Assembly (NCBI RefSeq): GCF_007988905.1
Contig: NZ_BJVA01000017.1
Location: 1-60,281, forward strand
DNA from: Gluconobacter kanchanaburiensis NBRC 103587
GTDB taxonomy: Bacteria > Pseudomonadota > Alphaproteobacteria > Acetobacterales > Acetobacteraceae
Length of the DNA: 60,281 nucleotides
Reading direction: 5' to 3'
The notes beneath the pieces are model-generated. The model had not been told where the DNA came from, did no database searches, and saw nothing but the letters and a program-made list of their open reading frames with translations. The translations under genes were made by a program, and so were the position numbers. The stretch's first letter is position 1, and every line of letters begins with the position of its first letter. Shown here in pieces: positions 55,897 through 60,083 of this stretch.

Positions 55897-56493
55897 ATGA
55901 ACGAAATCCGTCACGCCCGCCTGCATCGCGCAACCAGCGAAACCGATATCACGCTTGCCCTCACGCTTGACGGCCACGGCCGCTCGGACGTGGACAGCGG
56001 CATCGGTTTTTTCGACCATATGCTGACAGCGCTGGCCAAACATGGCGGCTTCGATCTGGAGCTGAAAGCGGTAGGGGACCTGCATATCGACGGTCACCAT
56101 ACTGTCGAGGATGTGGGAATCGTCTTCGGACAGGCCTTCCGCCAGGCCATTGGCGACAAGCGCGGCATCGAGCGTTTCGGTCATGCTCTCGTCCCGCTGG
56201 ATGAAGCTCTGTGCGAGGCGGTGGTGGATATTTCCGGTCGTCCCTACCTGGCCTGGAACGTCGTCTTTCCCCGCGAAAAGATCGGCACGATGGATACGGA
56301 ACTGTTCGAGGAGTTCTTCCGGGCCTTCGCCATGTCTGCCCATATTGCCCTGCATCTGACCTGCAAGGCCGGAACCAACGCGCATCACATTGCCGAAAGT
56401 GGTTTCAAGGCCGTCGCCCGCGCGCTGAAGGTTGCCGTCTCTCACGATCCCCGTCTTGCAGGGGTCATTCCCTCTACCAAAGGCGTCCTGTGA
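55897..56493 (+). CDS. hisB: imidazoleglycerol-phosphate dehydratase
   Basis: HisB dehydrates imidazoleglycerol phosphate, step 6 of histidine synthesis. The 198-residue monofunctional protein has the family motifs: SDVDSGIGFFDHMLTALAKHGGFDL, GDLHIDGHHTVEDVGIVFGQAF, GHALVPLDEALCEAVVDISGRPYL, FFRAFAMSAHIALHLTCKAGTNAHHIAESGFKAVARAL. The His and Glu pairs that bind Mn are present. It is the first gene of the operon in the window; hisH follows after about 55 bases. Confidence 0.97.
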   Translation: MNEIRHARLHRATSETDITLALTLDGHGRSDVDSGIGFFDHMLTALAKHGGFDLELKAVGDLHIDGHHTVEDVGIVFGQAFRQAIGDKRGIERFGHALVPLDEALCEAVVDISGRPYLAWNVVFPREKIGTMDTELFEEFFRAFAMSAHIALHLTCKAGTNAHHIAESGFKAVARALKVAVSHDPRLAGVIPSTKGVL

Positions 56494-56548: not shown

Positions 56549-57187
56549 ATGCGTATTGTCGTAATCGACTACAATGGAGGCAATCTTGCTTCGGCCGCGC
56601 AGGCAGCACGCAAGGCTGCGATCCGCAAGGGGATCGAGGCCGAGGTCGTCATTTCCCGTGACGCCAATGACATCCGGACGGCCGACCGCCTGATCCTGCC
56701 CGGACAGGGGGCCTTTGCGGACTGCGCTCAGGGCCTCGGGCCCGAACTGCGCGGCATGCTCGACACAGCAACCGCGAGCGGCACGCCGTTCCTCGGGATC
56801 TGCGTCGGAATGCAGCTTATGTGTGACTATGGCCTCGAACATGGCCGCACCGAGGGGCTGGGCTGGATTTCGGGCAATATTCGCCGCATGAACGAGGCGG
56901 CGGATGCGGGTCTGCGTCTGCCTCATATGGGCTGGAACACGCTGGATTTCGTTCCCGGTGCGCATCTCCTGACGGATGGCCTGACACCTGGCAATCACGG
57001 CTATTTCGTTCATTCCTATGCGCTTCACGATGGCGCGGAAAGCGATCTGGTAGCGACTGCACATTATGGGACGCGGGTTCCGGCCATCGTGGCCAGGGGC
57101 AATCGCTGCGGAACACAGTTCCATGTCGAAAAAAGCCAGGATGTCGGCCTAACGATCCTCGGCAATTTCCTGCGATGGACCTCATGA
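56549..57187 (+). CDS. hisH: imidazole glycerol phosphate synthase glutaminase subunit HisH
   Basis: HisH supplies ammonia from glutamine to HisF. The 212-residue product starts at the ATG at 56549, preceded by GGAGGT. Motifs: IVVIDYNGGNLASAA, RLILPGQGAFADC, FLGICVGMQLMCDYG with nucleophilic Cys, LPHMGWNTLDF, NHGYFVHSYALHDG, GTQFHVEKSQDVGLTIL with the catalytic His and Glu. The stop overlaps the start of the next gene as ATGA. Confidence 0.97.
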   Translation: MRIVVIDYNGGNLASAAQAARKAAIRKGIEAEVVISRDANDIRTADRLILPGQGAFADCAQGLGPELRGMLDTATASGTPFLGICVGMQLMCDYGLEHGRTEGLGWISGNIRRMNEAADAGLRLPHMGWNTLDFVPGAHLLTDGLTPGNHGYFVHSYALHDGAESDLVATAHYGTRVPAIVARGNRCGTQFHVEKSQDVGLTILGNFLRWTS

Positions 57188-58539
57188 CCATCACCTGCGA
57201 ACGGGTTGTCTCATCCCTCTCGCCCGAGGATATGGATGCGCTGATCGAGGCTACCTCGGCCGGAATTCTGGACGGAGGGGGCTTCGGATGGGTTCAACCT
57301 CCCGGTCATCAGGCGCTGGAACGCTATTTTGAAGGCCTCCTGCTGGTCCCTGAACGCAGCCTCTATATCGTGCGCGACAATGGCGTCATCTGTGGGGCCG
57401 GGCAGCTCGTCCGACCGCCCGCCAGTTATGAAGCACATGCAGCAACCGCCAACCTGACCGGCTTTTTCGTAGCACCCTACGCGCGGGGCCGCGGTCTGGG
57501 ACGCGCGCTTCTCGAAGCGATGCTCAGAGGCGCGAAGGCCATCGGCTGCAAGGTCGTCAACTGTGACATCCGCGAAACGCATGTGGCCGCTATCGGGCTT
57601 TTCCGGTCGTTCGGGTTCGGACACTGGGGAACCCATCCTTATTATGCACGGATCGGAGGGCAGACGGTGCGCGGAATTTTTCTCTCGAAACTTCTGGCAA
57701 ATGACGATGAGGCCGCACGTTGGCAGTCCAGCGTTGCGATGCCCGATGCTAGCGGTCCTTCGTCTGCCTCATCGCATGATACTGCCTCCTCCTCTGCCCA
57801 TGGTCTGACGCTTTATCCAGCTATCGATCTCAAGGACGGAGCCTGCGTTCGCCTGCGTCGTGGGGAAATGGAGGATGCAACCCATTACTCCGACGATCCT
57901 GCCGCACAGGCCCGTCTGTTTGCGGAAGCCGGATGCCGTCACCTTCACGTCGTGGATCTGAATGGAGCGTTTGCAGGCCGCTCCACGAATATTCCGGCCA
58001 TTGAATCCATTGTGAAAGCCACAAGCCTTCCCGTACAACTCGGCGGCGGCATCCGCGATATGGCTGCCATCGAACGCTGGCTTGAAGCAGGTGTCTCACG
58101 CGTCATTCTGGGCTCCGTCGCGGTCAAGGACCCTGAATTGGTCCGTCAGGCCGCGCGTGCGTTCCCCAGCAGAATTGTTGCAGGCATCGATGCGCGTCAG
58201 GGCCGTGTAGCGACCGAAGGCTGGGCCGAAGTCTCGGAGCTTGAAGCCAATGATCTGGCTCTGCGCATGGAAGATGCCGGCGTAGCCGCTGTGATCTTCA
58301 CAGAAATCACCCGTGACGGTATGCTGGCCGGGCTGGATCTGGAACAGACGGCTGACATGGCGCGCCGTTTGTCCATTCCTGTCATTGCAAGCGGCGGCGT
58401 CGGCAGCCTGGATCATCTGAAGGCCCTGCGCGACGTGGCGCGCAAGGTTCCGGGCATTTCGGGCGCCATTGTCGGCCGCGCGCTTTATGATGGTCGCATC
58501 GCGCTCAAAGACGCTCTGGACGTTCTCGGATCATGCTGA
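57184..58539 (+). CDS. hisA: GNAT acetyltransferase - HisA fusion protein
   Basis: The 451-residue product joins two domains in one frame. Residues 1-175 are a GNAT N-acetyltransferase: [32 protein letters not shown] with the acetyl-CoA Q/RxxGxG/A loop, and [15 protein letters not shown]. After a Ser/Ala-rich linker (about 180-205, [15 protein letters not shown]) comes a complete HisA (ProFAR isomerase): [129 protein letters not shown]. The ATG at 57184 overlaps the hisH stop. Usual HisA is about 245 residues. No stop or frameshift separates the domains. Confidence 0.93.
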
Positions 58540-59294
58540 AACTCCGCGTCATCCCCTGCCTGGACGTCAAGGATGGTCGCGTCGTCAAAGGCGTAAACTT
58601 CGTCTCCCTGCGCGATGCGGGCGATCCTGTCGAACAGGCCAAACTCTACGACGCTGCCGGGGCTGACGAACTCACCTTCCTCGACATCACAGCAAGCGTG
58701 GAGAACCGGGATACCATCCTCGACGTGGTCCGCCGCACGGCCGAAGCCATCTGCCTGCCCCTGACTGTTGGAGGTGGCGTCCGCACCTGCGAGGATATGC
58801 GCCGTCTGCTTCTTGCAGGGGCCGATAAATGCGCCGTCAACTCCGCGGCGATCAGGAACCCGGATCTGATCCGCGAAGCCTCCGAGCGCTTTGGCAGCCA
58901 GTGCGTCGTCGTGGCTATCGACGCCCGTTCAAACAATCAGGGCGGATGGGAAGTCTATGCCAAAGGGGGGCGCGAGCCCACAGGTCTGGACGCCGTGGAG
59001 TGGGTGCGAAAAATGCAGGACCTGGGAGCGGGCGAAATTCTGCTCACCAGCATGGATCGCGACGGGACCCGCGCCGGCTTTGATCTGGACCTCCTGCGCG
59101 CGGTCTGCGCCGCAGTGACTGTTCCCGTCGTGGCCTCAGGCGGCGTTGGCGAATTGCACCATTTCGTGGAGGGCGCTGAAGTCGGCGCAAGTGGTCTTCT
59201 GGCGGCAAGTGTGTTCCACTTCGGCCAGTTTCGTATCGATGAAGTCAAGAACGCGCTGAACAAGGCCGGCCTGCCGGTCAGGCTGGGAGAATAA
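58533..59294 (+). CDS. hisF: imidazole glycerol phosphate synthase cyclase subunit HisF
   Basis: HisF forms imidazole glycerol phosphate and AICAR. The 253-residue TIM barrel has [114 protein letters not shown] and [32 protein letters not shown]. Both phosphate-binding loops are present. The start overlaps the end of hisA by seven bases, and AICAR made here feeds PurH, encoded at 9222-10799. Confidence 0.98.
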
Positions 59295-59298
59295 GAGC

Positions 59299-59700
59299 AT
59301 GGGAAAACCCGCGACCAAACCGGCGCCAAAGCCTTCGAAGCAGCAGGACGACAAAAAATCCGATCTTCTGCAGGAACACGTTCTTCAGCGCCTTTACGAT
59401 ACGGTCCTGTCGCGCCGTGGAACCGACCCCGCACTCAGCCACTCGGCACGCCTGATGTCCCGGGGGCGCAACAAGATTGCCCAGAAATTCGGCGAAGAAG
59501 CCGTCGAATGCCTGATCGAAGCCGTCAACGGCAACCGCAAGGAACTGATCGGCGAAAGTGCGGACGTGCTTTATCATCTGATCGTCATGTGGGTAGATGC
59601 AGGCGTATCGCCGGAGGATGTCTGGGCGGAGCTTAAGCGCCGCGAAGGCACGAGCGGCATCGTCGAAAAAGCCTCCCGCCCCAAAGAAAAGCTCGGTTAA
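59299..59700 (+). CDS. hisE: phosphoribosyl-ATP pyrophosphatase HisE
   Basis: HisE hydrolyses phosphoribosyl-ATP, the second step of histidine synthesis. The 133-residue product has a Lys/Pro-rich N-terminus ([20 protein letters not shown], about 25 residues extra) followed by the family domain: [81 protein letters not shown]. The Glu-Glu and Glu-Ser-Ala-Asp metal sites are present. It lies four bases after hisF. HisI is not in the window. Confidence 0.95.
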
Positions 59701-59714
59701 ACAGGAAGCTGTCC

Positions 59715-60083
59715 ATGGTCTACGATCCAGGCAATATTTTCGCACGCATTCTGCGCAGGGAAATTCCTGCACGCACGATCTATGAAGACGATTACGCCCT
59801 CGCCTTCCACGACATCGCTCCCCAGGCTCCGATCCACGTTCTGGTCATCCCCAAAGGCCCTTACGTCTCCATCGCGGATTTCGGTGCCATTGCCTCCCCC
59901 GAAGAAATTACAGGCTTCTGGCGCGCCGTCTCAAAAATCGCCGAAGCACAGGGCCTGACACAGGAAGGCTTTCGCCTCATCAGCAACTCCGGTCCCAATT
60001 CCGGCCAGGAAGTCCCTCATTTTCATGTCCATCTGTTCGGCGGTAGAACTCTCGGCTCCCTGCTGACACAAAAAACTTCCTAA
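59715..60083 (+). CDS. HIT-family hydrolase (HinT type)
   Basis: The 122-residue product is a HIT-family nucleotide hydrolase: IFARILRREIPARTIYEDDYALAFHDIAPQAPIHVLVIPKGPYVSI, FRLISNSGPNSGQEVPHFHVHLFGGR, with the HxHxH motif as HFHVH near the C-terminus. It probably removes groups linked to AMP by phosphoramidate bonds. It follows hisE by 14 bases, as is common in alphaproteobacteria. Confidence 0.95.
   Translation: MVYDPGNIFARILRREIPARTIYEDDYALAFHDIAPQAPIHVLVIPKGPYVSIADFGAIASPEEITGFWRAVSKIAEAQGLTQEGFRLISNSGPNSGQEVPHFHVHLFGGRTLGSLLTQKTS

Follow-up and report, generated by a model that had tools for sequence, protein, structure and literature searches.

A GNAT acetyltransferase joined in frame to HisA in Gluconobacter kanchanaburiensis: a reversible fusion within the alphaproteobacterial histidine block

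Known fusions among histidine biosynthesis (his) genes include hisNB, hisIE, hisHF/HIS7, hisIED/HIS4 and the elongation of hisA and hisF, and fused and split forms of hisIE occur among close relatives in Bacillus, according to the available part of PMC1963479. Here we describe a gene in a 60,281-nucleotide stretch of Gluconobacter kanchanaburiensis NBRC 103587 (contig NZ_BJVA01000017.1, hereafter the window), in which a GNAT N-acetyltransferase is followed by HisA in one frame. It shares with the known fusions the in-frame joining and the presence of fused and split forms in close relatives; however, those fusions join his genes mutually, and none of the five listed there involves an acetyltransferase. 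The available text of PMC1963479 lacks the word stem 'acetyl', no word starting with 'acetyl' occurs in that of PMC10138114, and 'acetyltransferase' is absent from the main text of PMC5764234 as far as it was available. No account of a GNAT-HisA fusion or of a his-operon GNAT appeared among the literature matches listed, which were titles and abstract openings with partial coverage. The fusion is already visible in public annotations, where some copies are labelled 'fusion protein' by NCBI, and the GNAT family was not found described in the part of the literature searched. On the acetyltransferase side, the tabtoxin resistance protein TTR confers toxin self-immunity (PMC4964394, available part), whereas the present GNAT is a chromosomal gene inside the his block. 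We found that the fusion is real but reversible, fused and split forms switching in the family, and that the GNAT is a long-standing resident of the alphaproteobacterial his block, conserved in many Alphaproteobacteria.

The fused frame in the window

The GNAT-HisA gene is a single open frame on the forward strand (57184-58539; 451 codons, 451 aa, 47.6 kDa), running from the ATG at 57184 to the stop at 58537-58539 without interruption, with an alternative in-frame ATG at 57175. Both halves scored above their cut-offs, the GNAT half with PF00583 (54.2 bits vs. 20.7) and the HisA half with PF00977 (274.9 bits vs. 23.6) and the equivalog model TIGR00007 (262.3 bits vs. 228.95), and Pfam and NCBIfam placed the domains at about residues 43-145 and 210-443, respectively. 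The GNAT P-loop RGRGLG (residues 101-106) is intact and fits the Gln/Arg-x-x-Gly-x-Gly/Ala consensus (PMC4964394, available part). In the HisA half, the aspartates 215, 336 and 378 are all retained. We take Asp215 and Asp378, matched by motif, to be the counterparts of the D7 and D176 catalytic pair of S. enterica HisA. The initial annotation, which had read here one uninterrupted frame of a GNAT domain, a Ser-rich linker and a complete HisA with the key residues of both domains kept, was thus correct on these points. Compared with an ordinary HisA (ProFAR isomerase), the fusion carries 205 additional N-terminal residues, and it is the sole HisA of the genome, the second PF00977 match being HisF. 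The top solved structural matches of the HisA half were HisA and PriA, and a PriA-like, HisA-TrpF bifunctional identity was rejected by TIGR01919 (153.2 bits vs. a cut-off of 306.45).

The linker (residues 176-205) contains 10 Ser and 7 Ala among its 30 residues. The predicted structure of the fusion, with a mean predicted local distance difference test score (pLDDT) of 88.2 and a predicted template modelling score of 0.56, consists of a GNAT domain with the strand/helix order of that fold and a barrel. Linker residues 185-203 had pLDDT values below 50, so that the relative orientation of the two domains is undefined by the model. The fusion lies in frame within the his operon, as had been proposed. 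The stop of hisH and the start of the fusion share ATGA (57184-57187), and the 3' end of the fusion overlaps the hisF start (ATG at 58533) by 7 bases. The ATGA had been described as a preserved hisH-hisA overlap; the overlap is present, but it links hisH to the GNAT. What has disappeared is the boundary between the GNAT and hisA. The features are as follows.

57184..57708, + strand: GNAT N-acetyltransferase domain, residues 1-175 (PF00583; GNAT strand/helix order in the model)
57424..57438, + strand: SYEAH, residues 81-85, the altered NNEAQ motif of the family between strands 3 and 4, with Glu83 retained
57484..57501, + strand: acetyl-CoA P-loop RGRGLG, residues 101-106 (consensus in the available part of PMC4964394)
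57643..57645, + strand: Tyr154, near-invariant within the GNAT family
57655..57669, + strand: GGAGG and GTG (codon 162), a candidate internal HisA start or mere Gly-Gly-Gln-Thr-Val codons
57709..57798, + strand: linker, residues 176-205, Ser/Ala-rich and partly disordered (median ratio of nonsynonymous to synonymous substitution rates, dN/dS, 0.349 in Gluconobacter)
57799..58539, + strand: HisA barrel, residues 206-451, plus stop (PF00977, TIGR00007; top solved matches HisA/PriA)
57826..57828, + strand: HisA Asp215 (IDLKD), likely catalytic by motif
58315..58317, + strand: HisA Asp378 (TRDG), likely catalytic by motif
57184..57187, + strand: ATGA overlap of hisH stop and fusion start
55897..56493, + strand: hisB (PF00475, 225.1 bits)
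56549..57187, + strand: hisH (TIGR01855, 184.9 bits, cut-off 105.4; match frame given from 56558)
58533..59294, + strand: hisF, 7-base overlap with the fusion (TIGR00735, 353.4 bits, cut-off 294.55)
59299..59700, + strand: hisE (PF01503, 72.3 bits)
59715..60083, + strand: hinT-like HIT-domain gene, right edge of the block (PF01230, 86 bits)

Fused and separate forms in Acetobacteraceae

The one-frame fusion was present in 28 of 150 sampled genomes of the family. In the genus of the window, 25 of 26 genomes carry the full-length, stop-free fused frame, and the exception (G760, locus L368) lacks the GNAT, its HisA being preceded by about 40 additional residues. These 40 residues are perhaps a linker remnant. 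Among loci from named public records, 44 of 80 are fused; the one-frame form was found in Gluconobacter, Neokomagataea, Saccharibacter, Asaia and Bombella, and Acetobacter thailandicus has the split form. A fusion peculiar to the NBRC 103587 genome was therefore rejected, the one-frame form being widespread in relatives.

Loci were read from 135 of the 150 genomes, the other 15 genomes being judged by match coordinates only. Besides the 28 fused loci, the GNAT and hisA are adjacent but separate in 98, lie 568 and 1234 bases apart in two, and in seven there is no GNAT within the stretch examined. Four of these seven genomes (G066, G089, G104 and G014) have the GNAT elsewhere; in G098 and G128 the locus stops at a contig edge and the genome gave no GNAT match, and G046 keeps HisA with no GNAT match in the genome. 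As judged by coordinates, the GNAT and HisA are adjacent in different frames in G003, G005, G063, G075 and G138, and G126 has a partial HisA and no GNAT. The remaining nine (G009, G029, G064, G069, G091, G113, G116, G119 and G139) gave no GNAT match, and of these only G009 had a HisA match (4e-56) stronger than 1e-23. Note that two Asaia drafts, Asaia platycodi (L078) and Asaia astilbis (L084), in which frameshifts from sequencing error or decay break the frame, were counted as split.

The joint is fluid even within one genus, g31, which is probably Acetobacter because Acetobacter thailandicus nests within it on the HisA tree. In 27 of its 41 genomes the genes are fused (one visible only partly at a contig edge), in 12 they are separate, and two small genomes lack the GNAT. 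The 12 split junctions consist of seven ATGA overlaps, three in-frame TGA stops followed by ACCATG, and two others; in addition, many fused linkers retain a Met a few codons 5' of HisA, plausibly the former hisA start. On the HisA tree, eight changes between fused and not-fused states were required, or seven without the GNAT-less rows, and at least four are forced by the starred branches. A wider tree of 90 rows (40 random family rows, 8 random class rows, the rest chosen) with fewer g31 rows required four changes. Both are quick trees with many open forks, and the counts are silent on gain versus loss; the fusion is nevertheless the derived state, because the GNAT and hisA are separate throughout the rest of the class. 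The GNAT-less small genomes L368 (G760), L369 (G720) and L370 (G724) belong to clades containing fused members.

The GNAT family and its constraint

The GNAT part gave a strong match in 137 of the 150 family genomes, nearly always in single copy (E <= 1e-15), and a match in 104 of 289 class genomes (E <= 1e-12), a number that includes the genome of the window, three more of its family and G316, probably not an orthologue. In a phylum sample searched with 34 unfused rows out of 295 GNAT sequences, 8 of 299 genomes matched (E <= 1e-18), every one from this class, the output not giving the share of other classes among the 271 unmatched genomes. The search for relatives among plasmids gave no match. 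Outside the family, the GNAT lies immediately 5' of hisA on the same strand in 87 of 101 class loci, and none of these is fused. The 101 loci represent 100 genomes (G325 counted twice) and include L214, probably not an orthologue; L187 and L213 were scored as non-adjacent since the first query missed their divergent HisA, although hisA does come next there. The separate GNAT between hisH and hisA that the initial annotation had envisaged in relatives is thus present in both the family and the class. The open reading frame (ORF) just upstream of the GNAT bears a HisH motif in 83 of the 87 loci, and tblastn found hisH in 86 and hisB in 80 of them. Furthermore, the GNAT remains with hisH although hisA has relocated in L179, L182, L215, L219 and L220.

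In eight class genomes the GNAT is present, but the 1.5-2 kb fetched on each side of it contain neither hisH nor hisA. It stands beside both hslV and hinT in L140 (G310; a hisE match is also kept), L188 (G369) and L191 (G265), beside hslV only in L145 (G256), L167 (G407) and L199 (G182), and beside hinT only in L115 (G249) and L200 (G360); L146, with no his genes, hslV or hinT nearby, was left out. In tested neighbour examples, Pfam matched the proteasome-type PF00227, read as HslV, and the HIT domain PF01230. In L140 and L199, a short membrane-like ORF lies between hslV and the GNAT, directly upstream of the latter; it may resemble DUF2628. Conservation was scored at 47 reference positions, each of them shared by 90% or more of the unfused orthologues. 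The GNATs of the eight loci retain 40-44 of these, as compared with 15 in L214. Six of the eight genomes have a HisA/HisF pair elsewhere. The other two, G249 (93% complete; GNAT 44/47) and G256 (100% complete; GNAT 42/47), gave no PF00977 (HisA/HisF) match and no PF00815 (HisD) match. G310 gave no HisD match despite its HisA/HisF pair, so that a single missing match is no proof of auxotrophy. As the GNAT stays where his genes have gone, its function is probably separate from histidine synthesis.

The GNAT half is under purifying selection, as examined by dN/dS without pairs of tiny or saturated dS. In Gluconobacter (21 loci), the median was 0.089 over 210 GNAT pairs, 0.029 over as many HisA pairs and 0.349 over 160 usable linker pairs. 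The values for GNAT, linker and HisA were 0.041, 0.583 and 0.035 in Asaia, 0.091, 0.314 and 0.038 in Bombella, 0.208, 0.289 and 0.166 in the L018-L025 group, and 0.280, 0.729 and 0.155 in the L022-L027-L028-L073 group. In all five fused groups the GNAT value was below that of the linker and above that of HisA, indicating a constraint on the GNAT of a strength between the two. Among five unfused pairs, the GNAT value exceeded that of HisA twice and fell short of it three times. When compared at the same HisA distance, GNATs that are fused diverged more than unfused ones in all seven bins holding both (e.g., 0.420 vs. 0.246 at 0.20-0.25).

Of the 47 positions, the GNAT of the window keeps 40 (seven changed), three Asaia-like copies 36-37, the Bombella-like L014 and L015 29 and 28, L006 and L008-L010 40-43, and two g31 copies 41. 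On the other hand, the fused copies from two further lineages, nine in all (L018-L022, L024, L025, L027 and L028), keep 44-47, which shows, against the eroded Bombella-like copies, that the relaxation is lineage-specific and no automatic consequence of fusion. In all 20 named Gluconobacter loci NNEAQ has become SYEAH and Glu83, Arg101, Gly104, Asp128, Arg130, Trp148 and Tyr154 are kept; position 140 is Phe in all 20 and Tyr in 133 of 185 unfused rows. In L218 (G013), a GNAT without the P-loop glycines is still fused to HisA via an 89-residue linker.

Possible roles of the acetyltransferase

Among the best 50 of 1943 Foldseek matches of the whole fusion, all were of HisA/HisF/PriA type and none was a GNAT; the unfused orthologue of Pelagibius (L085) was therefore folded, and its predicted structure, on which the comparison rests, confirmed the GNAT fold for the family. 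Its top structural match was TTR (1GHE, Z 21.6), with which it shares the P-loop and size, followed by named phosphinothricin and ArsN acetyltransferases (Z 17.8-19.7). Identity to the tabtoxin, phosphinothricin and arsinothricin enzymes is just 16-24%, and the closest such resistance model among those listed, ArsN1 NF040503, gave 27.5 bits against a cut-off of 170, none of the listed models being specific to tabtoxin. From this structural resemblance, the GNAT may acetylate an amino acid analogue that inhibits glutamine synthetase. RimI, the ribosomal S18 N-acetyltransferase, is also a GNAT, and JGI calls several close unfused orthologues 'RimI-like'; this identity was rejected by TIGR01575 (35.6 bits vs. 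86.4), and a better candidate elsewhere in the genome (C9) reached 83.1 bits, itself slightly below the cut-off.

We favour, with moderate confidence, the explanation that two neighbours were fused by boundary loss and that the GNAT is a separate acetyltransferase acting on an amino-acid-like molecule, not in a histidine step. An alphaproteobacterial block of hslV, hisB, hisH, GNAT, hisA, hisF, hisE and hinT would have lost, in the acetic-acid-bacterium lineage, the break where the GNAT stops and hisA starts, the spacer turning into a loosely constrained linker. The HisA half would, by homology, perform normal ProFAR isomerisation, and the GNAT half would be an acetyl-CoA-dependent N-acetyltransferase co-produced with the histidine enzymes. 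Its substrate would most likely be small, for instance a stray metabolite or an antimetabolite of the glutamate/glutamine type. The joint itself probably adds little, being broken or re-made, with the GNAT half lost in some small genomes. The initial annotation, in which the GNAT might also serve the histidine pathway, is partly supported: its option that the domain rides along by fusion of neighbours fits best. A role as an accessory to histidine synthesis, in which the GNAT acetylates a pathway metabolite or HisH, HisA or HisF for control or repair and fusion delivers the target, appears unlikely. The class-wide linkage to hisH and hisA would suit it, as would the position of the GNAT after hisH in G066, G089 and G104 (L215, L219 and L220) though hisA is elsewhere. 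The absence of the GNAT from eight family genomes without a true HisA match (G029, G064, G069, G091, G113, G116, G119 and G139; three of them below 90% complete) would also fit it. However, such a role is weakened by the well-kept GNATs of G249 and G256, by the other loci with neither hisH nor hisA nearby, by the interchange of fused and split forms, and by G046, G760, G720 and G724, which keep HisA without a GNAT. The last three also reject the idea that the GNAT is required for HisA retention.

Decay is a more doubtful alternative, in which the GNAT half of Gluconobacter and its bee- and flower-associated relatives is a passenger retained mainly as the lead of the HisA frame. The changed residues (seven in the window, 18 and 19 in L014 and L015), Phe140, the lost glycines of L218, the excess divergence in the seven bins, the dN/dS above HisA and the outright loss in G760 are what it would predict. 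Yet the low GNAT medians of Gluconobacter, Asaia and Bombella, the values under the linker in every group, the Arg101 and Gly104 kept in all 20 named Gluconobacter loci, and the nine well-kept fused copies argue against it. Quite improbably, the GNAT of Gluconobacter would have been retuned after fusion (NNEAQ to SYEAH, Gln133 to His), so that the tethered domain would acetylate an amine close to where HisA and HisF catalyse their reactions, or by-products of these enzymes of, for example, the 5-aminoimidazole-4-carboxamide ribonucleotide (AICAR) type; the fusion would then unite two formerly independent functions in a new bifunctional enzyme. Finally, it is very improbable that the fusion is an assembly artefact, or that internal initiation gives two free proteins and makes the fusion protein irrelevant. 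All 73 fused loci tested (some genomes counted twice) do retain an in-frame start codon somewhere from GNAT residue 160 to HisA residue 5, and those surviving in the window are GTG codon 162, with GGAGG 7 bases upstream, and ATG codon 186. The GGAGG, however, arises from Gly-Gly codons within a conserved stretch, and starts near HisA are not conserved across Gluconobacter loci. An assembly error at the junction, raised by the initial annotation, was rejected by the stop-free frames of the genus and the fused public records. The predicted product is likely a single 48 kDa polypeptide. The GGAGG-GTG at 57655-57669 is common to all named Gluconobacter loci, whether as an internal HisA start or only as Gly-Gly codons.

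The histidine pathway is a textbook one, yet across a large part of a bacterial class its operon also houses, between the pathway genes, a strongly conserved acetyltransferase. On the simplest reading, selection maintains the GNAT for a function of its own, and it shares a transcript with the his genes. That it outlasts them suggests that operon membership, and even fusion, need not imply a role in the pathway, so that care is called for when function is read from domain fusions by 'Rosetta stone' reasoning. Genus g31 contains species with the fusion, with separate genes and with no GNAT, and offers a natural experiment on the effect of the fusion. The orphan GNAT, which occurs across the class and outlives its operon, is a more noteworthy object than the fusion itself.
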